The notes under the pieces were generated by a model. It was given only the letters and a program-made list of their open reading frames with translations. It was not told the origin of the DNA and did not search any database. Positions 19 to 15,300 of a stretch of DNA of 48,668 nucleotides are shown in pieces (the first letter of the stretch is position 1; each line of letters begins with the position of its first letter). The stretch lies in contig JADHTQ010000033.1 in the NCBI GenBank assembly GCA_016784965.1, positions 1 through 48,668 on the forward strand. Reading direction: 5' to 3'. This DNA comes from Bacteriovoracaceae bacterium. Lineage in GTDB: Bacteria > Bdellovibrionota > Bacteriovoracia > Bacteriovoracales > Bacteriovoracaceae. The position numbers and the translations under genes were made by a program.

Positions 19-153
19 GTAAATACTCCTCACGCCCCAATTAATATGCTAGATGTGTGCCAAAGTGTATTTTTTACTCTTCAGAATAAAGTTTTTATCT
101 CTTGCGTTTATACTGCACGGTTACCTGAGACAGGGGGTATGCATGTTCATACA

Positions 154-1122
154 TTAAGGATTTGTGGGAAAAATATTCTTAAAAATGGTTCTTATCTCGT
201 TATAATATAGTGTATCTTCTACATTAGAACTTAAATGCTTTTTTAGTTCATCGAAAATATTAACAGTCATTAAGGAAGAGTGTAATTCAAAATCACCCTC
301 CAAGCTTAATAAGCTAAGCGTATGATTCTTTAATATTTCCTTGCGAAAACCTCTCACTGCCCTATTTGTCAATAAAACTAAAAATTTACCCTTAATTAAT
401 AAATTTATAGTCTTCCAATCGCCATTAACAGCCCCTAACTTAATTTCATCCATATTTTGAAGGAAATCTTGTTTCAAGTTTTGAAGTCTGTGCGGTAGGT
501 GTCTTGCAGACAATTCGTCCCATAGGTCTAGGTTTTTCATTAATTTGAGGTCTGCATCTAAATCGCTAAGTGTCTTATTAATATTGTGGTCATTTTGTTT
601 TTTCTTTGTACAAAATGGCGTTCCTCTATTATTCTCATAAATCAACTTATCCATCGCAAAAAATGGCGAGAAGATTGCTATTAATTTCTTGAGACTATCC
701 TCTAGAACTGCTTTATTTTCAGAATTAAGGTAGAGACCGCATAAAAGAGCGAGACTGTTTTTTCCAAACAATATATTTTCTATTTCATAAACTGGAAGAG
801 TGTAAATTTCAGAATTTTGAATACTAGAGAAATCTTTGTCAAGTATTCCAAAAATTTGCTTGTCCTTCTTGATAGGCTTAAGGTCAGAAAGGAAAGTAGT
901 CACATTTTTTTTGCCTCCACATGACGCAAAGTAAGTTTTTCTTCTTTCTTTTTTATTTAAAAATTTTTCTAGAACCTCCTCATCTCGACTCTTCTTAGAT
1001 ATCGGTCGTTCCATTCCCTCTACTAATATTATAACATTAGCCTTGATCCACTTGGGCTCATGTCTGGTCCGAAAGGAATTAAAAGTTATGCGTTTATTTT
1101 GGAAAAAGTTTTTCTGGTTCAT
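154..1122 (-). CDS. AriB-like DUF4435 (TOPRIM) effector of a PARIS-like defence pair
   Basis: About 322 aa from the ATG at 1122; a TTG at 1134 would add four codons and overlap the ATPase stop. Visible motifs fit a TOPRIM/DUF4435 fold: ILVEG near residue 35, with the glutamate expected to be catalytic, then ILDKDF near residue 95 giving a D-x-D metal pair, then YEIENIL. In PARIS (phage anti-restriction-induced system), AriB is a TOPRIM nuclease held by the ATPase AriA and released when a phage anti-restriction protein is sensed, which leads to abortive infection. The ATPase gene lies immediately upstream and the two are tightly coupled. The family call rests on motif pattern and gene pairing, not a search. 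A related OLD-like ATPase/TOPRIM pair outside strict PARIS is possible. Confidence 0.7.
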   Translation of the reverse strand: MNQKNFFQNKRITFNSFRTRHEPKWIKANVIILVEGMERPISKKSRDEEVLEKFLNKKERRKTYFASCGGKKNVTTFLSDLKPIKKDKQIFGILDKDFSSIQNSEIYTLPVYEIENILFGKNSLALLCGLYLNSENKAVLEDSLKKLIAIFSPFFAMDKLIYENNRGTPFCTKKKQNDHNINKTLSDLDADLKLMKNLDLWDELSARHLPHRLQNLKQDFLQNMDEIKLGAVNGDWKTINLLIKGKFLVLLTNRAVRGFRKEILKNHTLSLLSLEGDFELHSSLMTVNIFDELKKHLSSNVEDTLYYNEIRTIFKNIFPTNP

Positions 1123-1126
1123 AAGC

Positions 1127-2191
1127 TTAGGCAATATGAAGTTTATATTCTTCAGGTGAAAAAGTTAAATGAACAAATTTATCGCACGAATTTGCTAGAT
1201 CTTCGGAATGTGAAGCAAATATTATCTGATTATTTTTACATCCTGGTATTTCTCTTATCCAGTTAACAAAATTTTCTTGCCACTCGAAATGAAAAGATGT
1301 TTCTGGCTCATCAAAAAGGATTACACCATCAGTAATCGTTTTACTCATTATTGCAAGAATTCGTGTTATTAGGTGTGTTTCTCCAGCACTGAGGTCGTAG
1401 AAAGGAATTAGCTCTTTTTCATTATTTATTCCAAACCACATAATTCCATCTTTCACAGATTTAATTGATTTACCTGTCAACATATTATGGTCTTCAAGGT
1501 ATTTCTTAAACTGGGAAAAGATATTATCGCATCCATTAGAAATATAATCTGTGTACGCCTTTTCAAATTTATTCATAAATTGAGGTGAATATTGTGTTTT
1601 CACATGATCATACAAGTGAACCCTCTCATTAAAAAGAAATGGAAAAATTTCACGGATAAAACTGTCTGCTGGATCAGGTGTATTGTTTGCACTACCTGAA
1701 GGCCGAAAAAAGTCGGAGAATTGTTGGGCAATGCTGGGGTAAAAAATAAAGTTATCAAATTGCTTCAGTAAATTGGGAAATACGATGACTTGTTTCTTAA
1801 CATCAAGATATCTTTGGATTAATTTGCCATTAATTTTTAAATTTGCGTTGTGATATTCAATAACAACATCTTCCTCTCTGTCATTTGAGATTACTAGTTG
1901 CAACTTCATTTTTTTATATTTTACATCAAGTTTTTCAAGCACTTTATCAACAGAATAAAGAAGCATAAAACTCCTTTGCTTCGAATCAACTTTTGCATTA
2001 TTTAAAAAATAAAAGTAATTTCTAATGGTCTCTATAAAGTCACGGAACAGCTTCAGTAATGTTGTCTTGCCTGAACCATTCAATCCGTAAATACCAATAG
2101 TTTGAAAAACATTATCTACACCGGATGAAAAATCCAACGTAAAGTTATTGAAAAAACGATAGTTATCCACTGTAATTTTTTTTATTCTCAT
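1127..2191 (-). CDS. AriA-like ABC/SMC-type ATPase of a PARIS-like defence pair
   Basis: 354 aa with all ABC-ATPase motifs: Walker A GLNGSGKTT at residues 36-44, signature LSAGE near 267-271, Walker B ILFDEPE near 291-297, and a switch histidine in FASHSE near 328. The insert between Walker A and the signature is short, as in AAA_15/AAA_21 (OLD-like) ATPases and not transporter subunits, and there is no membrane segment. Its stop touches the start of the DUF4435 gene, so the two are one transcript and probably one complex. In PARIS the ATPase assembles, binds the effector and acts as the trigger sensor. The ATG at 2191 has AGGA about 5 nt upstream and a clear promoter behind it. Confidence 0.75.
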   Translation of the reverse strand: MRIKKITVDNYRFFNNFTLDFSSGVDNVFQTIGIYGLNGSGKTTLLKLFRDFIETIRNYFYFLNNAKVDSKQRSFMLLYSVDKVLEKLDVKYKKMKLQLVISNDREEDVVIEYHNANLKINGKLIQRYLDVKKQVIVFPNLLKQFDNFIFYPSIAQQFSDFFRPSGSANNTPDPADSFIREIFPFLFNERVHLYDHVKTQYSPQFMNKFEKAYTDYISNGCDNIFSQFKKYLEDHNMLTGKSIKSVKDGIMWFGINNEKELIPFYDLSAGETHLITRILAIMSKTITDGVILFDEPETSFHFEWQENFVNWIREIPGCKNNQIIFASHSEDLANSCDKFVHLTFSPEEYKLHIA

Positions 2192-2501
2192 GGGGTCCTA
2201 GTTGGAAATTCCCAAAAATCCATTTTGTTCCATTATAGGGAATTGTATCACAAAATCAAAGAGATAAAGATACTCCCTGATGTAAATCTATCTCGGCCGT
2301 GACTATAAACAAAATCTAATAAATTAACAAGGTTAAGTGTGATTTTTCTTCAAATGAGTATTTAGTTTGTCACCTGCGTGAGGGCAGTCCTATTTTGTAA
2401 CAATAAATAATGCAATTAAATATATATGGGAAATGAGAATCAAGCGTTTTTTCATTCTAGAGAGTACTTCGTTGGCATTAAGAAGTGATGCTTGAAACCT
2501 T
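2192..2501. other. Intergenic stretch upstream of the ATPase gene
   Basis: 310 bp with no credible gene. Apart from the promoter at 2232-2259 it is AT-rich, and I see no strong hairpin, repeat or attachment site. Confidence 0.5.
2232..2259 (-). promoter_or_regulatory. Predicted sigma-70 promoter of the ariAB-like pair
   Basis: On the minus strand a TTGATT -35 (2254-2259) is followed after 16 bp by a perfect TATAAT -10 (2232-2237). Transcription would start near 2225, giving a leader of about 34 nt before the ATPase ATG. Confidence 0.6.
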
Positions 2502-2972
2502 CTAGTACGGAGCGGTGCACGATGTCTTGTTACCCAGTTTACAAGCCTTGGAAAAGAAGATATTTACCTTTTCTCGATCATCGCCACGCTCTAAATATTC
2601 AGCTGCCAATAACCCACAACCAAGGCCATGATTTGCATTACAGGCTTCTTTCCAAAATTTAATTGCTTTTTTCGAATTGCCAAGTTTGCTTTGGTGAACT
2701 CCTAAATTGATGCACCCAAGTTTCTGTTTCTCATTGCATACCTTTCTATAATACTTCAATGCTTGTTTTTTTTTGCCTTCTTTGTTTAAGATTGATCCCA
2801 AGTTTGTACATGCGTATTCGTGTTTAAGGCGACATCCTGTTTTATAAGAGGATTTAGCTTTGTCTATGTGACCATCTTTAAGCTGTAATATACCAAGATC
2901 ATTGCATGAACTGGCATATTTTAATTTGCACGCCTTTTTTAGGAACACCACCGCTTGCTTTATTTGACCCAT
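2502..2972 (-). CDS. Sel1-like repeat protein (C-terminal half of a split gene?)
   Basis: 156 aa made of roughly 36-residue Sel1/TPR-like helical repeats, each with a paired cysteine pattern of the type ACKLKYASSCNDLG, as in Helicobacter Hcp-type proteins. Such repeats usually act as protein-protein scaffolds in the periplasm. The ATG at 2972 is probably not the true start: the same frame stays open upstream to 3032 and encodes another good repeat piece (CNHAESCDDVAF), then hits a TAA at 3033-3035 inside the neighbouring membrane ORF. The protein also lacks a signal peptide. Both points suggest it is the C-terminal part of the membrane protein upstream, separated by a one-base shift. Confidence 0.6.
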   Translation of the reverse strand: MGQIKQAVVFLKKACKLKYASSCNDLGILQLKDGHIDKAKSSYKTGCRLKHEYACTNLGSILNKEGKKKQALKYYRKVCNEKQKLGCINLGVHQSKLGNSKKAIKFWKEACNANHGLGCGLLAAEYLERGDDREKVNIFFSKACKLGNKTSCTAPY

Positions 2973-3370
2973 AATCTTATATCTAAAAGCAACATCATCA
3001 CATGATTCAGCGTGATTACATTTACATGTTGTTTAGAATTTCTTGGTCTAGTTGTTTTGTTAAGGCTATCTATATTGTTGATTATTTTTAGACCAATAAT
3101 GAAAAGAGCACCTAGGGATATGCTTGAGAAAATAAATATCTTTTTGCCCCGAACTTGAAAGTAATCATCTTTTTTGCAAGCTTCATCTATCTTATATATA
3201 TGTGAAACAATATTTATGATCACTAGTAAAAATGCTAGTAAGCTAAGAAAGAAAACTACGGGGATAAAAAATGAGACCAAAATCAGCATTACACCGATAA
3301 CTCCAAAAGCAATTGTCGTTTGACGTGGCATAGGAAAGGACTTGCCTATGAAAATATACACTTTTTCCAT
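2960..3370 (-). CDS. Membrane protein (N-terminal half of a split Sel1-repeat gene?)
   Basis: 136 aa with three hydrophobic segments: about residues 18-36 and 38-56 as a hairpin, then about 83-100. The last 20 or so residues, after RPRNSK, look like out-of-frame reading because the overlapping -1 frame encodes cysteine-paired Sel1 repeat sequence there. The most economical reading is one protein with N-terminal membrane anchors and Sel1 repeats beyond, broken near 3030-3040. No function is recognisable from the N-terminus alone. If the shift is real, this ORF yields a truncated membrane peptide. Confidence 0.5.
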   Translation of the reverse strand: MEKVYIFIGKSFPMPRQTTIAFGVIGVMLILVSFFIPVVFFLSLLAFLLVIINIVSHIYKIDEACKKDDYFQVRGKKIFIFSSISLGALFIIGLKIINNIDSLNKTTRPRNSKQHVNVITLNHVMMLLLDIRLWVK

Positions 3371-3412
3371 ACTTAACTTCCTTACTGCATAACTCTTCTT
3401 GTCATCTATGCA

Positions 3413-3832
3413 CTATGGCTTTTTAATAGGGCTTGTTTCTGGAATCTCGATACTGACTTTGCACCAACCAGAATATATCTTTTTAGTGATGACTTCCTCA
3501 AAGCTTGGAGGGCCATCAGCATCTCCAAATATTAGAAACTCGCTACTAACGCCTAGCACCCTAGATACTCGTCTAACTGATTTAAAACTTCTCGGTTCTG
3601 TACCTGAGGCCCAATCTTTTAGAGTTGATTCACTGACCTCGGAGAGTTGACTCAATTTTTTATAAGTTAGGCCTTTGTCCTTCATGAGTTTGCGAAGAAT
3701 CTTGCCTATTTTGATTTCATCCATAAAATCATTATCGCTATTTCCTTTCCTTTGATAAGAGAAAGCCGATTCGCCAACTGTAAAGCCGATACCCCGTACT
3801 TTTTGTTTGGTATTTCCGTATTTTATTTCCAT
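3413..3832 (-). CDS. XRE-family helix-turn-helix regulator
   Basis: 139 aa from the ATG at 3832, which has an AGGTGG ribosome binding site about 5 nt upstream. An upstream in-frame start would add 23 poorly conserved-looking residues. Residues about 42-105 form a Cro/CI-type HTH: LGxxLKxxRxxxGLT-like KLMKDKGLTYKKLSQ, then SESTLKDWASGTEPRS as the recognition helix and linker. A short C-terminal tail of about 35 residues has no recognised effector domain. It sits between the Sel1 gene and the divergent GHKL/DUF4325 operon, so it could regulate itself or that operon. Its targets are unknown. Confidence 0.7.
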   Translation of the reverse strand: MEIKYGNTKQKVRGIGFTVGESAFSYQRKGNSDNDFMDEIKIGKILRKLMKDKGLTYKKLSQLSEVSESTLKDWASGTEPRSFKSVRRVSRVLGVSSEFLIFGDADGPPSFEEVITKKIYSGWCKVSIEIPETSPIKKP

Positions 3833-4191
3833 AAATCCACCTTTTGCAAAGTGAATATGGAGGATCAAAAGCTGGTGTTTAACGCAAGAGCTTGTTCGCA
3901 TATTTGTTCACATAAAACGTGAAAAATAGTGATAAATGATGAGAAATGATGAAATACAGGTAAAGATAAGTTGTTGAAAATTATCCAAAATGCTTACTGG
4001 TGGGGTTGTTAAATAACGAATGTACAATCAAGTCGGCTCGACCATTTAAAACGCATTCATTGAGGGACTATAACATGTTGAAATAATAGACCTACCTATC
4101 ATTGGGTGAAATTTTCCCTCTAAATTGACATGTGATTTCAAGATGTTATTATACTTATACCCTCAATAAATTAAGAGCGGAAAAAGTCAAC
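3833..4191. other. Divergent intergenic region between XRE regulator and GHKL operon
   Basis: About 360 bp without a gene. It contains the +strand promoter at 4125-4152, a short inverted repeat TTCAC-N7-GTGAA (3907-3923) close to the XRE gene that could be an operator, and a direct repeat of AAATGATGA (about 3934-3950). The operator role is a guess. Confidence 0.4.
4125..4152 (+). promoter_or_regulatory. Predicted sigma-70 promoter for the GHKL/DUF4325 operon
   Basis: A consensus TTGACA (4125-4130), a 16-bp spacer and TATTAT (4147-4152). Transcription would begin near 4159, downstream of the GTG at 4132. This rules out that longer start and supports the ATG at 4192. Confidence 0.6.
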
Positions 4192-5055
4192 ATGAAAATA
4201 ATTAAGTTTCCCAAAAGTCCAAAGTTAAAATATGCTAACTCCTTAATACGTTCAGTAAATGAAGTTTTAAGTACAAAAGACCGGCAGGTTTTCTTTGATC
4301 TGACAGCAACAGAAGAATTAGACGCACTAGCGATATCGTTTTTATGTGGTTTGATCAATATGACATTAGAAAATAATCCAAAAGTAAGCATTAAGTATCC
4401 TTTGAATAAAAAAATTAAATCAGTGGTTAAACTATTAGAGAAATCAATAACTAGTGACAAATTGCATGAAACGAAAATACAAAGTAATAGTTTTCAATTA
4501 AGAAAAGTTACAAGTAATAACAATTTATACATTGAACAAATGTTAACCTTACTACAAATAGAATTGAAATTTGGAGAATCAACAAGAGGTTCGCTCAGAA
4601 TTGTACTGACGGAATTATTAACAAATTCAATTGACCATAGCGGAGAAAAAGCTTGTTACATATGTTTGGGTAGGTGGCCTAATTCCCCCTATCTTCATTT
4701 AGTATGTCTAGATTTTGGAGTTGGAATACCTGCTAAATTAAGAACACGGTTTCCTGAATTAGACAATGATGTCACTGCCTTTAAAAATCAGCATGAACAA
4801 GGATTGACTACGAGAAGGGCACGAGATGGTGGAAGAGGGTATAGGCTTATTCAAGATATACTAATGGCAAACAAGGGGAGATTAAATATAATATCAAACT
4901 CTGCTAAGGTTAGTTATAAATACGACAAGGGTGATTACAAAGTGATAGCTTCTAAAGAAGGGTTTACGGGAACATGTGTGGATATTCAGTTTAATCCATC
5001 ACGTGGTGGATTTGAAGAAACTCTTGTGAAACAACATATTGAGGACTTTTTCTAA
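4192..5055 (+). CDS. STAS-like/GHKL ATPase protein (anti-sigma-like kinase fold)
   Basis: 287 aa from the ATG at 4192. The N-terminal 90 residues look STAS-like (FFDLTATEELDALAISFL). The C-terminal half is a HATPase_c/GHKL domain: N-box ELLTNSIDHS at 141-150 with N145, G1 box DFGVGIP at 174-180, G2 box GGRGYRLI at 213-220. There is no HisKA helix or phospho-acceptor His, so it is not a classical sensor kinase. It is closer in plan to partner-switching anti-sigma kinases or GHKL switch ATPases. Its stop overlaps the start of a STAS-like DUF4325 gene by one base, so the two products probably act together. The target is unknown. Confidence 0.65.
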   Translation: MKIIKFPKSPKLKYANSLIRSVNEVLSTKDRQVFFDLTATEELDALAISFLCGLINMTLENNPKVSIKYPLNKKIKSVVKLLEKSITSDKLHETKIQSNSFQLRKVTSNNNLYIEQMLTLLQIELKFGESTRGSLRIVLTELLTNSIDHSGEKACYICLGRWPNSPYLHLVCLDFGVGIPAKLRTRFPELDNDVTAFKNQHEQGLTTRRARDGGRGYRLIQDILMANKGRLNIISNSAKVSYKYDKGDYKVIASKEGFTGTCVDIQFNPSRGGFEETLVKQHIEDFF

Positions 5056-5357
5056 TGAAAATCAATATTAAAAAAATTTGTGGAGAGGATATCATTTCTA
5101 GAGATGCAGGAAAAAAAATAAGAGATCTGTTACTCGAAAACTGGAGTGCAAAATGTATTGAAATTTCAATTGGAAAAATTCCTATAGGGTCAGCGTCTTT
5201 TTTTGATGAAGCATTTGCGCTGCTATTAAAAAGAGAAGCTAAAACGATTGATGAAATTAAACATAAGTTAAAATTTGTTGATATATGTGATGATGACAGA
5301 AAATTATTAAATTATGTTTTGATGGCGCGAATAACTGAAGTTAAAATGAAAGCTTAA
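5055..5357 (+). CDS. DUF4325 STAS-like protein
   Basis: 100 aa. The pattern IEISIGKIPIGSASFFDEAFALLL in the middle matches the DUF4325 (STAS-like) family, in which a conserved S-F-x-D-E-A-F motif follows a beta strand. In these families the small STAS-like protein is usually paired with a GHKL ATPase, as here, where the start codon overlaps the upstream stop (TAATG). By analogy with anti-sigma-antagonist pairs the conserved Ser could be a phosphorylation site. That is inference. No signal peptide or membrane segment is visible. Confidence 0.65.
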   Translation: MKINIKKICGEDIISRDAGKKIRDLLLENWSAKCIEISIGKIPIGSASFFDEAFALLLKREAKTIDEIKHKLKFVDICDDDRKLLNYVLMARITEVKMKA

Positions 5358-5564
5358 GCGCCTAGAAACAATGCTAATTCCGAAATTATAACTTCGAAAG
5401 AGAGATTCACCTGAACATGTCAAAACACATATTTCACAAAAATATCCACCTATAAACACTCTTTTATTAAGATAACATAACAATTAATTAATACCAGCTT
5501 CTTAAACTTTAGTTACACATACTTTTTAAAATATTTAAATATAATCTTTCAAAGGAGAAAGGTA

Positions 5565-7037
5565 ATGATACCTTATAAGTTCAAAATATCGATAATAATG
5601 GTGGGCACTCTACTTGCGAGTTGTCAAAAAAAGCTGGACAACAGATTAGTTGAAAGTGCTGCAGATTCAAGGCAAAGCGAACAAATTGAGCAATTAACCA
5701 GACAGTTAAATGCTACTCAAACTGATCGGGCCAGGCAGGTCGAAGATAATTTTAAAAACTATACTGCCAGAGTTGGTCAAGCCTATAGTTATGCCGATTT
5801 TGTAATGGCCACTATAGTGCATACCCTCTGGCAATTAAAGAAAAATCCTCGGAAAAATGTACAAGTTGCAGTTGCTGAAGTTAATAAAACAATTGAAGCG
5901 CAATCCACCAATGCCCTATCTGGCCAACAAGATGAACTTACATCAACAATTGCAAATCCTGATAGTACAAATATAAATAAAATAATTAAAAAATATGAAC
6001 CGTCATTATTTGCAACTAGAGTAGACTTAGCAACTTCTTTGAATTTGCTTTTTAAAGAATTCATCCAAAGTTATAACATCAATAGAAATATTTTCTTTTC
6101 TTCTTTTTCATCTTTACTGGATGATACAAAATTAATCAAGCTAATTGCTACATATGATAGAGCAATGAGTTCCTTTGATTATGATGGAAAAAGTAATTTT
6201 AATTATCAGAGGGCCCTAGATGAAATTGCAAAATTTATTCTAGATGGTCCAACTGTCGATAATGGAAGGCAGATAAAAACACTTCTTTATAAAATGATAA
6301 AAGCGACCAAACAGGATCAAATAAGTTTAATCAGTTATCAAAACTTTCAGGCCCAAGATGCTGCAAGCAGGGCAAAGGAGTCTGAACAAAATGCTTCTGC
6401 AAGTGCACTAGCTGCCACCTCCTCTGCAGAAGCCGCCTTTCAACTTGCAAGTAAATCAAAACAGTATGCTGATGATTCTTCCCAAAGTGCTAAAAGCACC
6501 TCAGAAATTGCGTCACAAGTCCAAGACAGGGCATCTGAGGTTGAAACAATGATGAAAAATGCCCAAAACTCTGCCGAAAATGCTAAAGACAATTTCGACA
6601 AAATAACCTCCATCTTACAAGAGATAGAAACTAAACTTGCTCAAGCAATAGAAGAAGCTAATTCGGCCAAAACTAGCGCAGAAAATGCTGCACAAGCTGC
6701 CGATAGTGCCCAAGAAAAATTAGCTGATATTCGCTTGGCCCAGGATACCATAAATACTTCACAGGAGGGTATTCAAGAAATTGCCACTCAAATTGACCAG
6801 AGTCTAAAGGATGCACAAACAAGACAAACACAAGCTGCAGAAAGTGCCACAACGGCCCAAAAACAAGCAGGTGAAGCCAAACGCTTTGCAGACTTAACAC
6901 AAACATTACATGATCAAGTCGTGGAGGCCATCAAGCAAATTCAAAGTGATACCCCAGCGGTTAGTGATATACCTTCAATTACAGCTTCTGAGGAGCAGTC
7001 AACTGGAAGCAACGGGCAACAGGAGGTATCGCCATGA
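5565..7037 (+). CDS. Coiled-coil outer-membrane lipoprotein
   Basis: 490 aa with a lipoprotein signal: a hydrophobic stretch ending in LLAS-C20. Residues 40-260 are mostly helical. Residues about 265-470 are an Ala/Ser/Gln-rich coiled coil with repeated AxxSAExA units (SAENAKDNF, SAENAAQAADSAQ, SATTAQKQAGEAK) resembling the helical shafts of tail fibres and bacterial surface fibres. The start has AAAGGAG 8-10 nt upstream and a TATAAT at 5540-5545, though no good -35 is seen. The stop overlaps the next start by 4 bp (ATGA), coupling it to an OmpA-domain/barrel protein, so a periplasm-spanning or surface fibre complex is plausible. No known family recognised. Confidence 0.65.
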   Translation: MIPYKFKISIIMVGTLLASCQKKLDNRLVESAADSRQSEQIEQLTRQLNATQTDRARQVEDNFKNYTARVGQAYSYADFVMATIVHTLWQLKKNPRKNVQVAVAEVNKTIEAQSTNALSGQQDELTSTIANPDSTNINKIIKKYEPSLFATRVDLATSLNLLFKEFIQSYNINRNIFFSSFSSLLDDTKLIKLIATYDRAMSSFDYDGKSNFNYQRALDEIAKFILDGPTVDNGRQIKTLLYKMIKATKQDQISLISYQNFQAQDAASRAKESEQNASASALAATSSAEAAFQLASKSKQYADDSSQSAKSTSEIASQVQDRASEVETMMKNAQNSAENAKDNFDKITSILQEIETKLAQAIEEANSAKTSAENAAQAADSAQEKLADIRLAQDTINTSQEGIQEIATQIDQSLKDAQTRQTQAAESATTAQKQAGEAKRFADLTQTLHDQVVEAIKQIQSDTPAVSDIPSITASEEQSTGSNGQQEVSP

Positions 7038-7876
7038 AAAAGTACATCTCAATATTACTATTTTTGACTTCAATTATACAAAACAGTTTTGCTAAGGAGA
7101 TAACTTGTCAGGTTTGGTTTAAGTTTGATTCTATTGTTGTCAACAAAAAATCACTAACCAAATGTGTGAGTCAAGTGAATCAAAAATATATAGATTTCGT
7201 CCACATTTTTGCAACAGCTTCTGATCCTGGAACAATGAAGTATAACCGAAAGCTATCGCTGCAAAGAGCACGTGCCGTTAAACAAACCTTAATTGAAAGT
7301 TTTCCAAAAATTAAAAACATTGTCGTCAAGGAGGGTGGAGAACATCCAGATGGACAACAGGCCACAATTTTTGTATATGCCAATACTAACAAGCATTCTC
7401 AAGCAATAACTTTAGGGCAGGCTGCAGTCTCAAAAACCCGCGAACCTATTAACGAAATCAATCAGCGGCTCAATCTATTCTCTTTTAGAGTTGGTCAAGA
7501 GAGATACAGGATGAGCAATAATAACTATAAAAGTGTTGGGATTGATTATAAAAGGATGAAGCTGATATTTAGTAATAACTTCTTTTTAAGTTATGGAGTC
7601 TCTTTTACAAGCTATGCCGATGATAGTTTTTTAGACCTATATGGAATCTATGGTACTTTAGGAGTAGATTACAAATATCAAAATTTTATACTCGGTATAG
7701 AATCATTTGCAGGAGGATTTTCTCATTTCAACAAACGTGTGAAAAATACAACCGTTTTTGATCCAGGAGGAAATACTAAAATAGGCTTTGATAGTGAGGC
7801 ATATACTGCCACAATCAACTATGGTATTTCCAAATCCTTTGAAAAGCTCACCTTTAATTTTGGCATTAAATTTTAG
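7034..7876 (+). CDS. OmpA-like domain with C-terminal outer-membrane barrel-like region
   Basis: 280 aa with a signal peptide (cleavage near SFA-KEI, residue 21). Residues about 25-125 resemble a compact OmpA C-terminal (peptidoglycan-binding) fold: an FKFDS strand, HIFATASDPG, then NRKLSLQRARAVKQTL, which matches the conserved helix. The rest, from about 150, has alternating amphipathic strands rich in Tyr, Phe and Gly and ends in the aromatic FNFGIKF, the C-terminal signature that directs barrel assembly by BAM. This order (OmpA-like first, barrel last) is the reverse of classical OmpA. It is translationally coupled to the coiled-coil lipoprotein gene. Confidence 0.6.
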   Translation: MKKYISILLFLTSIIQNSFAKEITCQVWFKFDSIVVNKKSLTKCVSQVNQKYIDFVHIFATASDPGTMKYNRKLSLQRARAVKQTLIESFPKIKNIVVKEGGEHPDGQQATIFVYANTNKHSQAITLGQAAVSKTREPINEINQRLNLFSFRVGQERYRMSNNNYKSVGIDYKRMKLIFSNNFFLSYGVSFTSYADDSFLDLYGIYGTLGVDYKYQNFILGIESFAGGFSHFNKRVKNTTVFDPGGNTKIGFDSEAYTATINYGISKSFEKLTFNFGIKF

Positions 7877-8201: not shown

Positions 8202-11171
8202 GTGGCTGTTTCTAACAATTTAATAAAGAAAATTATCGAAGAAAATCGCGGTGGATTTTTAGTATTAGTCATTGCAATTACTGGTGCAATGAGTGGATTT
8301 TTACTTATATTTGCTGATCAACTTACGGGTGTACTTAAAATCACGAAAAAAAAGCAGTCCAGTTTTGTTGAAAGGGGATCTATTGCTCAAGTCTTAGCAT
8401 ATGGCCAATATTTAGTTGAAAATCATAAATGCGTCAACACTAGTACAGGCGTCATTATAGATGATCCAGATAGTGCAGATTGCAGTCTGAATGCTTCAAA
8501 TAAGTATAATCTTTTAAAGGTTATCTTGTTTGACAAAACAGTCAATGATCTTAGGGGACGATGGGGTGCTGATATCGAACGTGAAGATCAAATTATCATT
8601 ACAATACCTAAGGCTACTTTGAAAAACAGAAGCTTCGCACTAAGCCATCTCTACTATAATAATGTTGAGTTAAAAGGCCTAGATAGCATTCAAATTACAT
8701 ACAATAGTTACTACAACCCCCACAATGAAGATATGATTCAACTAAAAATTACGGCAACTCTTAAAAATAGCAATATAGTCGGCAATGAGTTTGCAAAAGG
8801 TCAAAGAACAATTATTTTATCACCTCGCTTTGTCAATACCATATCCCTGGCACTTAATCGAAACTTGGTAATAGGAAATAATACTGGCAATAATGGAGCG
8901 CTTGGTGAGGGCAGTGATGTAATGACCGAGTGTAAAGATAGCGGCAGAAGTGTTAACAACTTAAAGTTTACAAGTAACACAGCAAAACTCATATTTGATT
9001 CACCAGTTTTTGTTAATGGTGATGTACTCATTCCAAAAGAGGATGAAACCTCGAGTAATATTGTTACAAATATAAAGTTTAATGATGTTGTCAGTATCGG
9101 TGGTAAAATTAAAACATACAAGGGAGCTGAAGTTAGTGACCTTGCACCTGCTACAGATGGTTTGCTTGAACCACTAGCATCACACAATAACTTTCCCGGG
9201 CTACTTGGAGGTATTAAACTTGCAGAATTTGAACCATCACTTTGTACGATCTTTACAAAGCGATATTCAGGAGTAGTGCCTGCACCAGCTCCAGACATTG
9301 AAGCCTGTAAAGTAGAAAGTGCTGCTGAAAATGATCCTACAGCAATCAATGGTTCGCGTATAGTTATGAAAAAACTATCGCGAGACGTATCAAACACACT
9401 ATCAACACCTGCATCGGCTGATCCAAACGATAAACTATGTACTTGGCCTGATAACCCTGTATATAATGGTAGTCCTCCAAGCAAATGTAGTGATTCTAGA
9501 CCTGTCACATCTTTACCCACTTCAACCCAAATAATGGTTGGTCTTACAAAAGGTAATAAATATAAAGGAAATTCATGGTCCGATGGTAGCCTTAGCAAAA
9601 TAACCATGCAAGATGGGAGCACAGTTGACGCAAACCTTGAACCAGTAATGGGTGTGCAGCTAAAGTGGAAAAAGGTATCTATAGGTGATACACGTGATAG
9701 CCTTAATACAAATGGTGATGAAGTTATAAAGAACTTTCAACTAGCAGCAGGAACCAAATACACTATTGGGGATGTTACTGCTTCTGATATTGCTATAGCA
9801 GTTGAAACCAGGTTTGGGGTTAGTTCATCAGAGAGTCCAAAAGATTATTTTCATGATGACAGGATTTTAGAAGCTGACCCTAGTTATTCTGCAAATCCAG
9901 CTTTGGCTAGAAAATGTACAGGAACCCCTCCATATGGGCCAGGAGATTGCGAGCCACTTAGACCGTCTCTGTCGTTTAGCCTTAGTGATGGACCAACTGA
10001 TAGCCAGAAGAAGTTAAAAATAACAGTAAACAACAGGCATGACTACTACCCTTGGCTTGCAGATATCGAAGTAACTCTTAGGCCTTATAATAAAAAAACC
10101 AAAGGGGAGCTTCCTGTAAATCTTGCCGATGCAACCAAGTATGATCAAAATACTGGAGGGCCAAATGCTAATCCGGCTCAACGTACTTTTACTATTAAAA
10201 GCACGGGTCAATACGCAGCAGCTGGCAATCAAAACGATACAGATATTGGCTGGACTGGCCCTACTGGGGGACCAGATCTTGGTATAGGGGACCCACTTCC
10301 TGTACCGGCTAACTACTATCCTTCTAATCAGTGGAAGGCATTTACTACTACATCTAATAACTATGCTAACTATAGCCCTGATCCAGGGGCAGGCGAAGAC
10401 AAAAGTCTGGGAGATACAGCTGTTACTCCAACTAGTAACAATTGTGATGGAGTTACTACAGCACTACAAGCATCTCCTACTCCATCGGAGATTAACCCAG
10501 ATTTTTCACCAGGAGCATTTTATTCATGGAACTTTAGACCTTCTAGTATGAAATTTCAATACAAACCAAAAGATGGATCAGAAAGCTTATGGGAAAGTAT
10601 ATATTCAACCGGTACAGAAAGCGTGCTCAATTCCTTAGAGGTCAATGACTCAAATGAATCTATAGTGCACGTTTATAGTATCCTCGATAAGTGTGTCGTA
10701 AAGAGTTCAGCCAATCAAGTTATGGGCTTTATGACCTGTCGTAATTTAATAATTGAAAGTAGAAGCACTCCCTTAGAAATGATCGGATCATTTATCGTTG
10801 ATCAATTAACTATCTCTCCTAGTGTAACCAGCACAATTACCTGGAGAACGGTGTATCATCCAGGAGCTCTAGTTACACTCAAGCGAGTCAGAGCAATGGG
10901 AAATCCACTTGATGAGAATGATAATATTTCAAATTGTTATGTTCAAGCAAATAGTCCAACTTGGAATATAGTGAGTGCTGATCTTAAAAAGATGGATCGG
11001 TTTGAAAAATGTGCAGGTATGTTTTTGGCCAAGGATGCAGATCCTTTTAATTGGACCTCTTTTAATCCTCATGAAGGAATAACAGAGGCCGGCCAAATTA
11101 TAAATCAAAGAAAGGCCGATGGCCTAACAGAATCATATTCAAGCTACATAGTGAGTGAAACTTATGAATAA
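8202..11171 (+). CDS. Giant PilX/GspK-like minor pilin (989 aa)
   Basis: 989 aa, starting at a GTG with a strong GGAGGGA site. The N-terminus has a basic stretch, then RGGFLVLVIAITGAMSGFLLIF, a single hydrophobic helix at about 17-36. It resembles PilX/GspK-type prepilins, whose mature helix lacks the Glu5 of ordinary pilins. The rest is a large exported domain rich in Asn, Ser, Pro and Gly with scattered cysteines (for example at DSADC and HKC) and no domain I recognise. It is followed by two prepilin genes of the sizes expected for GspI- and GspJ-like subunits, so a tip-complex role is inferred. GspK is normally about 300 aa, so the size is unusual. Confidence 0.55.
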   Translation: MAVSNNLIKKIIEENRGGFLVLVIAITGAMSGFLLIFADQLTGVLKITKKKQSSFVERGSIAQVLAYGQYLVENHKCVNTSTGVIIDDPDSADCSLNASNKYNLLKVILFDKTVNDLRGRWGADIEREDQIIITIPKATLKNRSFALSHLYYNNVELKGLDSIQITYNSYYNPHNEDMIQLKITATLKNSNIVGNEFAKGQRTIILSPRFVNTISLALNRNLVIGNNTGNNGALGEGSDVMTECKDSGRSVNNLKFTSNTAKLIFDSPVFVNGDVLIPKEDETSSNIVTNIKFNDVVSIGGKIKTYKGAEVSDLAPATDGLLEPLASHNNFPGLLGGIKLAEFEPSLCTIFTKRYSGVVPAPAPDIEACKVESAAENDPTAINGSRIVMKKLSRDVSNTLSTPASADPNDKLCTWPDNPVYNGSPPSKCSDSRPVTSLPTSTQIMVGLTKGNKYKGNSWSDGSLSKITMQDGSTVDANLEPVMGVQLKWKKVSIGDTRDSLNTNGDEVIKNFQLAAGTKYTIGDVTASDIAIAVETRFGVSSSESPKDYFHDDRILEADPSYSANPALARKCTGTPPYGPGDCEPLRPSLSFSLSDGPTDSQKKLKITVNNRHDYYPWLADIEVTLRPYNKKTKGELPVNLADATKYDQNTGGPNANPAQRTFTIKSTGQYAAAGNQNDTDIGWTGPTGGPDLGIGDPLPVPANYYPSNQWKAFTTTSNNYANYSPDPGAGEDKSLGDTAVTPTSNNCDGVTTALQASPTPSEINPDFSPGAFYSWNFRPSSMKFQYKPKDGSESLWESIYSTGTESVLNSLEVNDSNESIVHVYSILDKCVVKSSANQVMGFMTCRNLIIESRSTPLEMIGSFIVDQLTISPSVTSTITWRTVYHPGALVTLKRVRAMGNPLDENDNISNCYVQANSPTWNIVSADLKKMDRFEKCAGMFLAKDADPFNWTSFNPHEGITEAGQIINQRKADGLTESYSSYIVSETYE

Positions 11172-11604
11172 AACAAAAAAAAATGATTCAGGAATGTCCC
11201 TCATTGAAGTTATGGTCGGCTTCGCTGTTTTGGGAATAATTATTACCATTGTTACTTCTGGTCTTGGTACATGGTTTGGGACACTCAACAAGGTTAAAAC
11301 TACAGAGCAAGGCAATGAAATGGTAACCTCCATTATGGAGAGCCTTGTTCATAACTCACGTTACTATCAAGCAAATTTTGCAGGACCTGATAGCCTGCCC
11401 GAATTTGATCCCAATAATCTACCGATGGCATGGAGTAAAACTGGAATAAATGTGCCAGTAGAACAGTGTCCTAAGTGTGATGGACGATATGGTATTAGGA
11501 TGTGGGCATTAGAAGATTATCGTGGACTCTATATGATGGAAATCACAATGACACACCCTACGATTAAGGGGAACAAAGTATATTCACGAATAGTTGGGTT
11601 TTAA
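11164..11604 (+). CDS. Type IV prepilin-like protein (small minor pilin)
   Basis: 146 aa from the ATG at 11164; a GTG at 11155 would add three codons. A short basic leader ends in SG, then MSLIEVMVGFAVLGIIITIV, a class III prepilin signal with Gly-1 and Glu+5; the +1 residue is Met in place of Phe. The globular part has a CPKC pair. The start overlaps the end of the 989-aa gene by 8 bp. Its size and position between a GspK/PilX-like and a GspJ/PilW-like gene suggest a GspI/PilV-like role. A prepilin peptidase must act from elsewhere in the genome. Confidence 0.75.
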   Translation: MNKTKKNDSGMSLIEVMVGFAVLGIIITIVTSGLGTWFGTLNKVKTTEQGNEMVTSIMESLVHNSRYYQANFAGPDSLPEFDPNNLPMAWSKTGINVPVEQCPKCDGRYGIRMWALEDYRGLYMMEITMTHPTIKGNKVYSRIVGF

Positions 11605-11606
11605 AT

Positions 11607-12581
11607 ATGAAAAAGCAAAAACACATTAATGAAAAAGGGTTTTCACTTGTTGAAACGATGATAGCTGTTACTGTTTCTGCAGCTTTAATTTTTGCTGTCC
11701 TACTATGGTGGCAAAATTTTCAAAAAGGTAAAGGTGCTCTCGAGGCAACAGCAGAGCAATACTCAGTCGACTCCACAGTCAAAAGGTTTCTTTTTGATGA
11801 CCTAGGACATTCTGCTACCTCATTTTATCTTTTTACAGATCTCACTGCCCAGACTGATGGCGATGATTGTGCTGGTATTGATAATTTGTGGCAATTAGCA
11901 AGCGGTATTGCAGACTGTTCATTGGAATTTGAATTAAACCCTTCCAATGAATTGTGGCTTTTAAGAGAGAGAAGTAATTCAAAGGCAATGATTTTTTCTC
12001 CGAAAATGGCCTACAAAACAAACCCCGACCTAACTTATAGTCCTACTGATTTTAAAAATTATATCACTAGTCAAGGAAGCTGGTATCCAGGTTCACTTGT
12101 AAAACTAGAAAGCACTACCAGGCCAAGAGATACAAATGGGAATATGTTAAATTATTCCATTTTAGTAAAACAAGTTGATGATAATTCAAATCCACTGCAG
12201 TTGTATACGAATGCTGATGAGGGATTTAATAAACTTCTTCCTCCTAATTATAGTACTCATTGTGACAAAGGTAGTTACTCAAATGCAGGCATTGATCTAT
12301 TTCTACGTTGTCCTCCCTCAACCGGATCAGTATCATTAATTCGCTTGATTCCTGTTTCTCTTATAAGGTACAGAGTGGAAAATTCCACAGAATATGAAGG
12401 GTTATTTGACTTATATAGGGCCAAAGTGATGGTAAATAAAGACTCAGGAGCAACAAGTATTATTGAAAATAGAATTGCTACTAAAGTAAAAAAGTTAATA
12501 TTTTTTAGAACAAGTATAACAAGCCCAATGATTTCATTTCAATTTGAAATGGCTTTGTGGCGAAACTTAAAAAAGCTCTAA
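11607..12581 (+). CDS. Type IV prepilin-like protein (GspJ/PilW-like)
   Basis: 324 aa. The leader ends in EKG, then FSLVETMIAVTVSAALIF, a canonical prepilin cleavage site with Phe+1 and Glu+5. The ectodomain has cysteines at DDC, DCS, THC and RCP that may form disulfides. It starts 2 bp after the preceding stop, so it is cotranscribed. Length and position fit the J/W class of minor pilins that cap a pseudopilus. There is no ATPase, platform protein or secretin gene nearby, so these subunits would have to use assembly machinery encoded elsewhere. Confidence 0.75.
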   Translation: MKKQKHINEKGFSLVETMIAVTVSAALIFAVLLWWQNFQKGKGALEATAEQYSVDSTVKRFLFDDLGHSATSFYLFTDLTAQTDGDDCAGIDNLWQLASGIADCSLEFELNPSNELWLLRERSNSKAMIFSPKMAYKTNPDLTYSPTDFKNYITSQGSWYPGSLVKLESTTRPRDTNGNMLNYSILVKQVDDNSNPLQLYTNADEGFNKLLPPNYSTHCDKGSYSNAGIDLFLRCPPSTGSVSLIRLIPVSLIRYRVENSTEYEGLFDLYRAKVMVNKDSGATSIIENRIATKVKKLIFFRTSITSPMISFQFEMALWRNLKKL

Positions 12582-12596: not shown

Positions 12597-14297
12597 ATGA
12601 AGAAATATCTTTTTTTCGACATATTGATTTTTTTATTTTCATTACACACGTTTGAATTATTTGCCACCACGGTTAATGTCTACCCTCAGTCAGCATCATC
12701 TGGTCTAAGTGGAGCATCAACGGCACCTGTTTCAGAGGCTAAACCTAGTGGGGAGAATGCCTTATTTTTTAAAGGCACCTGTTATGGTACAAATAACCGT
12801 AGTACAAATAATCCAATTAGCCCTAGCTCAACAATTACTGCAACGGTTAAAGTTGGAGGAGTTGTAAAGTTACGATTTTCATTTAAGGGCAAACTTGCAT
12901 CTCGTACTCCTCCGGTAACAAACTTTGAGGATGATGCACAAGCCTCACAAGATAGGTCTATGAACTATTCTGAGAGGGTAAGTAACCTATTGTATACTCA
13001 CGTGAAGATGTTTTGTGAAATGGGACCAAGCGGGAGCGACAACCAAAAACTATGTAATAAAGAGTTAAGTGATGAAGGGGCGACTAATGCCCTAAATGCC
13101 GCCAAAGGATTCATTAATGCTAATCTCACCACAGGATCATTTCCTGCTTCACCAGCAGGAGGTACTGCCAAATCAGCAGAAGTTGGAAAATTTAAAGGTA
13201 AAACAGCACAATTTATTACAGAGTTATTGAGCAATACTGAAGCTGGTAAATTATCTATGGCAAGTACGTACAACACACAGGTCGCTGCAGTGAGTGGGCT
13301 TGCTCGAGGATACTGTTTGTTAAATCCAGATCAAAGTGATGAGGCAAAAGGGGGATTAACTGATACCCAAAAAACTTGTCTCAAACAAACAACATGTAGT
13401 GCAATATGTGCACTAAAAGAAAATGCTAGTATATATGGTAATTGTAAAACAGAATGTTTAACTGACCTTAATCCTGCCAGCACCCCTGACCTCGCCTGTA
13501 AAGCAGGCTTAGGTACTTCTAGTCTATCTTCAACGGGTGTTGCTTGTCAGGATAGAAGTCTAGTATATGAAGGTATTAATTGGGGTGCAGGTGGTAATGT
13601 TGAAGTTACATATGAGCAAACAAACACTGGCCGTCCAACTAGAGTTAATTTTTATGCTTGGGATGGACCGATTACTGTAAAACCATCATGGAGTTGGGGG
13701 CAAAATGGTTCTTTAAATCTCGAGGCTACATTTCCGGGACAGGATGGGTACTGTGGAGGATATCACTCACCTCTGATGGTATTTTTTAATAAAAAATATC
13801 CTAAATTTAGTAATGTTGTTAACTTTTTACGAAAAGATATTGATGGTGTTAAAACCTTTTGGCCAGAAAAAAACCATCATGGATATTTTTTAGCTCTGCT
13901 TAAAAAAGGTAAAGAAAAACAAGGAATTTGGGAGTCCAGTCAAGTATTTGGTCAAAATGGATACTACCTTGATGGCTTTCGTGCCCTTTCTGCTATAGAC
14001 TCAAACTTTGATGGGAAAATCACAAAAGCTGACGATGAGTTTAAACGACTGGTATTATGGAAAGATAAAAACTCTGATGGGCGTTCACAAAAAGGGGAAC
14101 TGTTTACACTCAAAGAGATGGGAATTTATCGCTTTGATATTCATGACAGAGATACGAGCTTCACAATGCACTTTGGTAGAAGAGCTAATGCTAGGGGTAG
14201 AGCTAACTTTTATTATGTAGATCCAAAAGATAAGTCACATCGGAAAAAAACCGGAGAGCTTATCGATATCTTTTTTCATGAATACCTACCTGAATAG
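12597..14297 (+). CDS. Secreted EF-hand protein of the pilin-like operon
   Basis: 566 aa with a signal peptide (MKKYLFFDILIFLF, cleavage near FA-TTV) and a strong AAGGAG site. The central part has a cysteine-rich cluster (CLKQTTCSAICALKE and following). The C-terminus carries two consecutive EF-hand loops: DSNFDGKITKAD at 468-479 and DKNSDGRSQKGE at 490-501, followed by a LKEMGI segment as in calcium-binding repeats of secreted bacterial proteins. Last gene of the operon, 15 bp after the prepilin gene. PilY1 also binds calcium and works with minor pilins, but I see no PilY1 beta-propeller signature, so that link is only an analogy. Confidence 0.65.
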   Translation: MKKYLFFDILIFLFSLHTFELFATTVNVYPQSASSGLSGASTAPVSEAKPSGENALFFKGTCYGTNNRSTNNPISPSSTITATVKVGGVVKLRFSFKGKLASRTPPVTNFEDDAQASQDRSMNYSERVSNLLYTHVKMFCEMGPSGSDNQKLCNKELSDEGATNALNAAKGFINANLTTGSFPASPAGGTAKSAEVGKFKGKTAQFITELLSNTEAGKLSMASTYNTQVAAVSGLARGYCLLNPDQSDEAKGGLTDTQKTCLKQTTCSAICALKENASIYGNCKTECLTDLNPASTPDLACKAGLGTSSLSSTGVACQDRSLVYEGINWGAGGNVEVTYEQTNTGRPTRVNFYAWDGPITVKPSWSWGQNGSLNLEATFPGQDGYCGGYHSPLMVFFNKKYPKFSNVVNFLRKDIDGVKTFWPEKNHHGYFLALLKKGKEKQGIWESSQVFGQNGYYLDGFRALSAIDSNFDGKITKADDEFKRLVLWKDKNSDGRSQKGELFTLKEMGIYRFDIHDRDTSFTMHFGRRANARGRANFYYVDPKDKSHRKKTGELIDIFFHEYLPE

Positions 14298-14369: not shown

Positions 14370-14930
14370 CTAACGTTGCTGACGTCTACCCTTTCGATTA
14401 CTTCTTCTTTCCTCTATTTCACTTTTACAATCAGCGGAAAATTTATCTTGGTTTTCTCTTATACATTTCCTTCTTCCACCTCGCTCTTTTGAGGCATCCT
14501 TACAATACTTTTCAAAATCTTCTCGACATTTATTATCCTTACCGCCACCATGCTTCTTTTTTCTTTCTTCTATCTCACTTTTACAAGCATCTGAAAATTT
14601 ATCTTGATTTTCTCTTACACACTCCCTTCTTCCGCCTCGGCCTTTTAGAGAATCTTTACAATATTTATCAAAATCTTCTCGACATTTACTATCCTTTCTT
14701 CCTCCGTGTCTTTTTTTTCTCTCTTCAATCTTACTTTTGCAAGCGTCTGAAAACTTATCTTGGTTTTTACTTATACACTCCCTTCTTCCTCCCCGCTCTT
14801 TTAGAGAATCTTTACAATATTTTTCAAAATCACTTGCACATGGTCTGCTACTACTGGCCATAGCAAGTCCACTGTACAGTAAAGAAGAACCCAACAATAA
14901 CAGACTAATCATTATTATTTTAACATCCAC
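14370..14930 (-). CDS. Secreted cysteine-rich GLG1-like repeat protein
   Basis: 186 aa from a GTG at 14930, chosen because AAGGA sits 6 nt upstream; longer starts would run into the arsR-like gene. A signal peptide (ISLLLLGSSLLYSGLAMA, cleavage after AMA) is followed by three tandem 52-residue repeats, each with four cysteines and a basic, RGGRR-containing middle (CxxDFxKYCKDS, RRxCIxxNQDKF, xxCKSxIEER). The Cys spacing resembles the cysteine-rich GLG1 (Golgi apparatus protein 1) repeat found in scattered bacterial secreted proteins. The tail is very basic. Binding function is unknown; positive charge suggests interaction with acidic polymers or the envelope. Confidence 0.65.
   Translation of the reverse strand: MDVKIIMISLLLLGSSLLYSGLAMASSSRPCASDFEKYCKDSLKERGGRRECISKNQDKFSDACKSKIEERKKRHGGRKDSKCREDFDKYCKDSLKGRGGRRECVRENQDKFSDACKSEIEERKKKHGGGKDNKCREDFEKYCKDASKERGGRRKCIRENQDKFSADCKSEIEERRSNRKGRRQQR
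14373..14840 (-). repeat. Three tandem 156-bp coding repeats
   Basis: Units at about 14685-14840, 14529-14684 and 14373-14528 encode the 52-aa cysteine-rich modules. Recurrent blocks such as TTTACAATAT and CAAAATCTTCTCGACATTT recur with a period of about 156 bp. The high nucleotide identity suggests recent duplication. Confidence 0.7.
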
Positions 14931-14958
14931 AAAAATTCCTTTTTTAAAGTAATCGTTT

Positions 14959-15300
14959 CTATTTTTTAGATTCCGCCAATAGACATAATCCCAGTTCAAG
15001 CAAGGTTATGACACATGGATCTAGAATTCGGTAATGTATTTCGGTCCCATTTCTTTTACAAGCTAGAATATTACAATTAACAAGACGCTGAAGCTGGTTA
15101 GAGACTGCCTGGGGCTTCATATCCACTTCTTTTGCCAAATCGTTGACGCAAAGCTCTTGTTTTCTAGCAAGCGCATGGAGTAATCTAAGCCTTGTGTCAC
15201 TTGTTAATATCTTAAATAGCTTTGTTAGATCTGTTGCGACCTCTAATGAAATAAGTGGCCTACTGTGAATAGGTGCATTGTTTTTTTCACACGCTTTAAT
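14959..15300 (-). CDS. ArsR/SmtB-family metalloregulator, non-canonical start
   Basis: A clear ArsR winged-helix protein of about 113 aa: TDLTKLFKILTSDTRLRLLH, then ELCVNDLAKEVDMKPQAVSNQLQRL as the helix-turn-helix, then a wing with GTEIHYRILDPCV. Cysteines in KAC, ELCV, NC, AC, DPCV and GLC may bind metal. The frame is open up to a TAA at about 15370, but it has no ATG, GTG or TTG before the HTH. The best start is an ATT at 15300 with GGAG 6 nt upstream. It lies divergent from a Cu/Zn efflux permease with a palindrome between them, so it probably represses that gene in the absence of metal. Confidence 0.7.
   Translation of the reverse strand: MKACEKNNAPIHSRPLISLEVATDLTKLFKILTSDTRLRLLHALARKQELCVNDLAKEVDMKPQAVSNQLQRLVNCNILACKRNGTEIHYRILDPCVITLLELGLCLLAESKK

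Follow-up and report, generated by a model that had tools for sequence, protein, structure and literature searches.

We describe a conserved four-gene unit, here termed K-I-J-X, in a 48,668-nucleotide contig of a Bacteriovoracaceae bacterium (JADHTQ010000033.1 of assembly GCA_016784965.1), the whole of which is referred to below as the window. The unit combines three minor pilins, of which K is a giant, with an exported protein, X, whose C-terminal domain resembles the self-processing module (SPM) of FrpC. It is real, conserved and pilus-tip-like, and its composition, a giant pilin with a predicted solenoid plus an SPM-like partner, is new within the familiar arrangement of minor pilins and an exported tip protein. 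We consider it probable that K-I-J-X forms the minor-pilin complex that primes a type IV pilus and makes up its tip, with type IVa as the likeliest class of pilus.

A linked set of four genes

The K gene (8202-11171, + strand) has a GTG start and encodes 989 amino acids; it lies in the position of GspK or PilX, and cleavage of its leader is predicted after Gly17. Downstream on the + strand follow I (11155-11604), a GspI/PilV-like prepilin of 149 residues for which the ATG at 11164 is a possible alternative start, J (11607-12581), a GspJ/PilW-like prepilin of 324 residues, and X (12597-14297), 566 residues with a Sec-type signal recognised by eye and the C-terminal SPM-like domain. Since I begins before K ends (11155 against 11171), and gaps of just 2 and 15 bases separate I from J and J from X, respectively, the four look like a single operon. 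A promoter scan was uninformative, giving 28 sites compared to 21.5 ± 4.4 in shuffled sequences. A first-pass annotation of the window had marked three consecutive prepilin-like genes at 8202-12581 as a K-I-J tip set: the three genes are indeed there, at the right coordinates, but the unit has four members, X having been missed.

Searches of the N-termini with profile hidden Markov models support the assignment of I and J, which match PF07963 (E 6.6e-7 and 1.8e-4), while K matches no Pfam family. The prepilin-type leader of K (residues 1-17; 8202-8252, + strand) was assigned by rule and was assessed by aligning 25 K proteins, namely the window K and those from 24 of the 25 loci found through X (L050 left out). 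The Gly at position -1, Gly17 in the window protein, is invariant (25/25), Glu is never present at +5 (0/25; Leu in the window K), and of the 20 residues that follow, 19-20 belong to the nonpolar or small class (A, V, L, I, F, M, G, S, T, W, Y or C). The absence of Glu5 from the large subunit, pointed out in the first-pass annotation, is thus a property of the whole alignment, and by the same rule K carries a peptidase site of the right kind.

Further examples were sought with one peptide pattern for X in 84,980 species genomes, a search that will have missed distant X proteins because it rests on that pattern. The 44 pattern matches yielded 25 loci, the titles of which name Bdellovibrionota lineages with the exception of two 'Proteobacteria bacterium' and one 'Oligoflexia bacterium'. 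Each of the 25 holds K, I and J, a recurrence that is not due to chance; the X gene of L062 is cut by a contig end. K was always found together with prepilin genes.

The linkage was then quantified across the phylum in a sample of 240 genomes, at least 77 of which contain a match to the X profile at E ≤ 1e-5. The 71 matches at E ≤ 4.6e-49 were kept; the weaker ones left out are mostly SPM alone or N-terminal pieces. These strong X genes occur in 46 of the 240 genomes and K (profile A4, made with L050 left out; E ≤ 1e-20, at most three candidates scored per genome) in 49, among which are all 46. Every one of the 71 strong X genes has K beside it, 70 of them within 5 kb and the 71st (G183:C11) with K in region L086; in the other direction, X lies within 5 kb of 70 of 73 K loci, the remaining three belonging to K-only genomes of 360-470 contigs. 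The Fisher p value for the linkage, 3e-46, takes no account of kinship, and no weight is placed on it. K, I and J also stand beside all 15 open reading frames (ORFs) that combine a CGG segment with SPM in regions of the sampled genomes (locus G200 being shared with the 25-locus set). As controls, 20 stretches of 17 kb taken from these genomes contain no K, I, J or SPM ORF and a single match to the prepilin rule (L073, probably false); the rule also failed to pick up genuine I and J genes. X precedes K in L041, L043, L048 and G012, so the linkage survives reordering.

Abundance varies between groups: of 17 genomes from the genus taken as Bdellovibrio, 16 carry the cassette, versus 14 of 72 from the window genome's own family. 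Two to three strong X copies are found in 16 of those 17 genomes, and four in G183. Two K-I-J-X cassettes adjoin each other at L094 (G157:C6), which suggests that the complete set was duplicated.

The giant pilin K and its SPM-like partner

Across the 25 loci, K measures 828-1169 residues. The usual size of GspK is around 320 residues, and the earlier description of K as three times the usual size is true against that figure alone: the GspK-like gene in the type II secretion system (T2SS) operon of the same genome encodes 447. Membership of K in the GspK family was considered and rejected, as there is no Pfam match and an hhalign comparison with the GspK of its own genome aligns the leader only (probability 21, 22 columns). 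The leader is likewise all that aligns with the K-like gene of a second set, on contig C47 (probability 9, 58 columns). T2SSK was absent from the 25 K proteins in a Pfam search; comparison of all 25 with NCBIfam and Pfam produced scattered coiled-coil matches alone, in one or two members, and a sequence search of the PDB with K gave no match. A minus-strand ORF of 273 amino acids within K (8801-9622) was taken as spurious.

The structural model of K has a mean predicted local distance difference test score (pLDDT) of 54.4 and contains a small sheet and a long N-terminal helix spanning residues 16-73; strands also lie at 263-313 and at 811-882. In the VIA comparison its top match is ComZ of Thermus thermophilus (6qvi; Z 8.1, 291 residues), at a root mean square deviation (RMSD) of 14.8 Å, followed by ice-binding β-solenoids including FfIBP (Z 7.6-7.7, 153 residues, RMSD 3.8 Å). 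VIA merely re-aligns Foldseek candidates, and that GspK is not listed among its rows excludes nothing. The predicted solenoid would be made up of residues 209-313 (8826-9140, + strand), in a low-confidence part of the model, and 811-885 (10632-10856, + strand), the best-modelled region with blocks mostly at pLDDT 79-93. Residues 979-988 (11136-11165, + strand) may form a last strand that rejoins the pilin sheet in a ComZ-like topology, the VIA rows aligning residues ~70-206 together with 986-989. ComZ is reported to be a GspK-like pilin in which a large β-solenoid interrupts the fold just ahead of its final strand; its tip location has been argued, and its nearest folds were given as GspK and FfIBP (PMC6561018). 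K differs in its 989 residues and in a long unmodelled insertion (~390-760), and the portion of the ComZ paper available mentions no SPM partner. A pilin with a ComZ-like β-solenoid is, on this modelling, a lead with real weight, if not proof. The ectodomain, put down in the first-pass annotation as unrecognised, is hence not wholly so, although Foldseek returned no significant match.

The C-terminal part of X (residues 385-560; 13749-14276, + strand) comprises a conserved CGGYHSP segment and the SPM-like domain, identified both by profile and by Foldseek. Profile A1, made from eight X proteins, hits the FrpC SPM in the PDB (6sjw/6sjx) with E 1.1e-22. The AlphaFold model of X, built with 24 sequences, has a mean pLDDT of 62.2, with the N-terminal half poorly modelled and residues from ~385 mostly above 84; with this model, 6sjx and 6sjw were the sole Foldseek matches at E ≤ 0.001 (E 1.6e-7 and 8.1e-7; template modelling scores by target 0.70 and 0.72). 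Two EF-hand-like loops are conserved within the domain. In the first, at residues 468-479 (13998-14033, + strand; D-x-N-x-D...D), the acidic or amide ligand residues are kept in all 24 aligned X proteins (alignment A3, with L050 and L062 left out); the second, at residues 490-501 (14064-14099, + strand; D-x-N-x-D-G...E), is kept in 22 of the 24. The first EF-like loop of the FrpC SPM is not evident in the window X. These conserved loops suggest that X binds calcium.

FrpC is reported to cut an Asp-Pro bond at the start of its SPM, the fold of which was called novel by its authors (PMC7078468). Self-cleavage of X in the same fashion was considered and rejected, since the scissile Asp-Pro at the module start is not conserved: no Asp-Pro is shared among the 24 X proteins, and the sole one in the window X is at residue 542. 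Self-processing is therefore not expected, and X, while sharing fold, sequence and EF-hand-like loops with the FrpC module, is better described as SPM-like. A further difference probably lies in the route of export, X having an apparent signal peptide whereas FrpC, as an RTX (repeats-in-toxin) protein, would leave by type I secretion.

SPM-like domains also occur in other contexts. The regions that supplied the 15 ORFs with CGG segment and SPM contain 32 with SPM alone (among the 40 regions fetched, L121 had no SPM ORF despite a profile match there). No prepilin gene lies in the stretch fetched around 24 of these 32; many of the 24 are lipoprotein-like. The domain is thus not confined to pili. 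Four others, in L033 (window genome), L099, L102 and L115, belong to a second kind of K-I-J set in which the partner is a large protein of ~1030-1130 residues ending in an SPM-like domain; the L033 set (26-6872, contig C47) has divergent K-I-J genes and a K-like protein of 532 residues. One more adjoins a 190-residue pilin (L112) and two are near a K-I-J-X-type cassette. In L117 (7366-9243, - strand) a 625-residue prepilin with a collagen-like run is itself fused to SPM (residues 479-615). That SPM repeatedly accompanies K-I-J sets of two kinds, and is once fused to a prepilin, argues for its use at pilus tips. Lipoprotein-like proteins of ~430-490 residues with a C-terminal SPM-like domain and no prepilin genes nearby are seen in L084, L087, L088, L096, L097 and others.

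Two further features flank the cassette. Convergent with it, at 14370-14999 (- strand), is a small exported-looking protein with approximately three Cys-containing repeats. Upstream and on the same strand, at 5565-7876 (+), a lipoprotein-like coiled-coil protein overlaps an OmpA-domain protein (PF00691, E 3.1e-6).

Likely counterparts in Bdellovibrio bacteriovorus

Judged by gene order, sizes and identities, the cassette appears to correspond to two operons of B. bacteriovorus, Bd2209-2212 and Bd2723-2726. Their published products measure 414/384 (X), 328/325 (J), 153/162 (I) and 995/901 residues (K) (PMC12034629), to be compared with 430/384, 328/325, 153/162 and 1006/924 for the two cassettes of the relative G117, the K lengths being off by 11 and 23 residues. 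Identities between the two copies of X, J, I and K are 40, 36, 40 and 33% in G117 against 39, 37, 41 and 31% as published. The window copy differs in belonging to another family and in being single in its genome.

In the same study each operon was modelled as a four-protein complex, with interface predicted template modelling scores of 0.852 and 0.837; expression was in attack phase, Bd2210, Bd2211, Bd2212 and Bd2723 were linked to predation loss, and Bd2209 was annotated as frpC (PMC12034629). The operons were published there as complexes of hypothetical proteins, and in the part of the text available 'pilin' is absent and 'pilus' appears once. A transposon mutant in the J gene, Bd2210::tn, is reported to be defective in attachment, killing and rounding, placing it in the same class as PilT (PMC6561027). 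Within the open-licence literature, with subscription papers and preprints outside its scope, we found no paper naming the genes of Bd2209-2212 or Bd2723-2726 as a pilus tip. The earlier suggestion of a tip adhesin in contact with prey is made plausible by the reported need for the J gene in attachment; K need not be that adhesin, however, since X is the better candidate for a PilY1-like tip partner. Bd2726, the K homologue, is also listed among the c-di-GMP (cyclic dimeric guanosine monophosphate)-binding candidates needed for predation (PMC6561027), which is odd for an exported pilin.

Pilus machinery and competing readings

Assembly genes were found elsewhere in the window genome, as the first-pass annotation had proposed to check. 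Contig C116 carries PilT (three matches over cut-off), a PilB-like ATPase whose match is below the PilT-family cut-off, and the single detected prepilin peptidase; PilQ is matched with E 1.3e-92 and a PilA-like gene lies on C24.

With this machinery, K, I and J would be cut by the prepilin peptidase and, if the precedents of GspK-I-J and PilX-V-W apply, would assemble through their N-terminal helices to cap the filament, K bearing a large β-solenoid inserted in its pilin head. X would be exported by Sec, fold around calcium in the periplasm or outside, and bind K-I-J, taking the place that PilY1 has in other type IVa pili, where it would help to prime assembly and be displayed at the tip. There X and the K solenoid may contact a surface or prey, and extension and retraction through PilB and PilT could then drive attachment. 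The systems of PilY1 with minor pilins (PilVWX, FimU) in Myxococcus and Pseudomonas similarly place minor pilins beside one exported calcium-loop protein, and several sets per genome are common among them (PMC8833165). Here, by contrast, there are three minor pilins including the giant K, with an SPM-like domain in place of a recognised PilY1 propeller.

The best-surviving alternative, which we nonetheless think unlikely, places K-I-J at the end of a type II-like pseudopilus that would work as a piston, with X as its secreted FrpC-like exoprotein substrate. K lacks Glu5 as GspK does, X looks exported and is related to an RTX exoprotein domain, and a T2SS operon is present on contig C15. That operon lies on a different contig from the K-I-J set and, as read from gene order and lengths, has its own G-H-I-J-K pseudopilins, leaving the two SPM-linked sets as the visible candidates for pilus minor pilins: the T2SS operon accounts for four of the 11 PF07963 matches at E ≤ 1 in the window genome, the present set and the C47 set for two each, and the remaining three, which lie elsewhere, are PilA-like or weak. 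The pseudopilus reading is further disfavoured by the leader-only alignment of K with its own genome's GspK, by the fusion of SPM to a prepilin in L117, by published models that place X inside the complex (PMC12034629), and by the report that Bd2210::tn phenocopies a PilT mutant (PMC6561027). Matches to T2SSK (PF03934), found in 173 of 240 genomes and often in frames of ~780 residues, are uninformative for T2SS versus pilus; the sole match in the window genome is on C39 and is not the GspK on C15.

Somewhat less likely still, the pilus would serve competence or DNA uptake, its tip having K as a ComZ-type DNA receptor and X as an accessory. The structural comparison favours this in that ComZ, the top match of the K model, is reported as a tip-located DNA-binding pilin with a solenoid that also matches FfIBP (PMC6561018); yet a shared fold, here superimposed at 14.8 Å over 291 residues, shows no function, and the B. 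bacteriovorus J mutant is reported to be defective in prey attachment (PMC6561027). That the unit is an ordinary type IVa minor-pilin cluster with X a remote, diverged PilY1 seems very improbable: X does occupy the gene position of PilY1 and keeps EF-hand-like calcium loops, and PilY1 too is reported to be calcium-dependent (PMC8833165), but the C-terminal domain of X matches the FrpC SPM fold that was called novel (PMC7078468), and PilY1 (PF05567) is matched in none of the 240 genomes, a count tempered by silent control genomes.

Several observations weigh against the type IV pilus tip that we prefer. The genome does possess a T2SS, whose pseudopilus is a possible user of the K-I-J set, and the window itself is without any pil gene. 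The lack of PilY1 matches offers no help, for all 14 control genomes are silent as well, so that PilY1 absence is unproven and unusable as evidence. The K model is poor, Foldseek finding nothing for it at E ≤ 0.001 (best E 0.43). The correspondence to the Bd operons is based on the relative G117, the HD100 sequences themselves not being its basis; TadC and AglS mutants fall into the class of Bd2210::tn too (PMC6561027), so this phenotype does not single out type IVa pili, and the window organism is no more than a possible predator. Finally, 191 of the 240 genomes are without K at E ≤ 1e-20 even though every one of the 240 has a PilQ match (over cut-off in 198). With K in just 49, the cassette is one tip option and not a requirement for a type IV pilus.

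The Kil (Tad) pilus of Myxococcus xanthus is linked to predation and has several sets of genes for exchangeable tips (PMC12075869); it differs in being of Tad/Flp type, and the resemblance to the present case is one of description. On a more tentative note, many Bdellovibrionota might have replaced the PilY1 tip with a giant β-solenoid pilin K and a calcium-folded, SPM-derived X that has lost self-cleavage, and duplication of the cassette might supply a choice of tips suited to particular prey or stages of attack.

Bdellovibrio and its relatives require type IV pili to grip and enter prey, but in the literature surveyed the tip of these pili is undefined. The K-I-J-X cassette is a conserved and concrete candidate for the tip of a predator pilus. 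It would make several genes that are linked to predation but labelled 'hypothetical' testable as parts of a pilus tip, and would add the calcium-binding fold of secreted RTX proteins to the components from which pilus tips are built.

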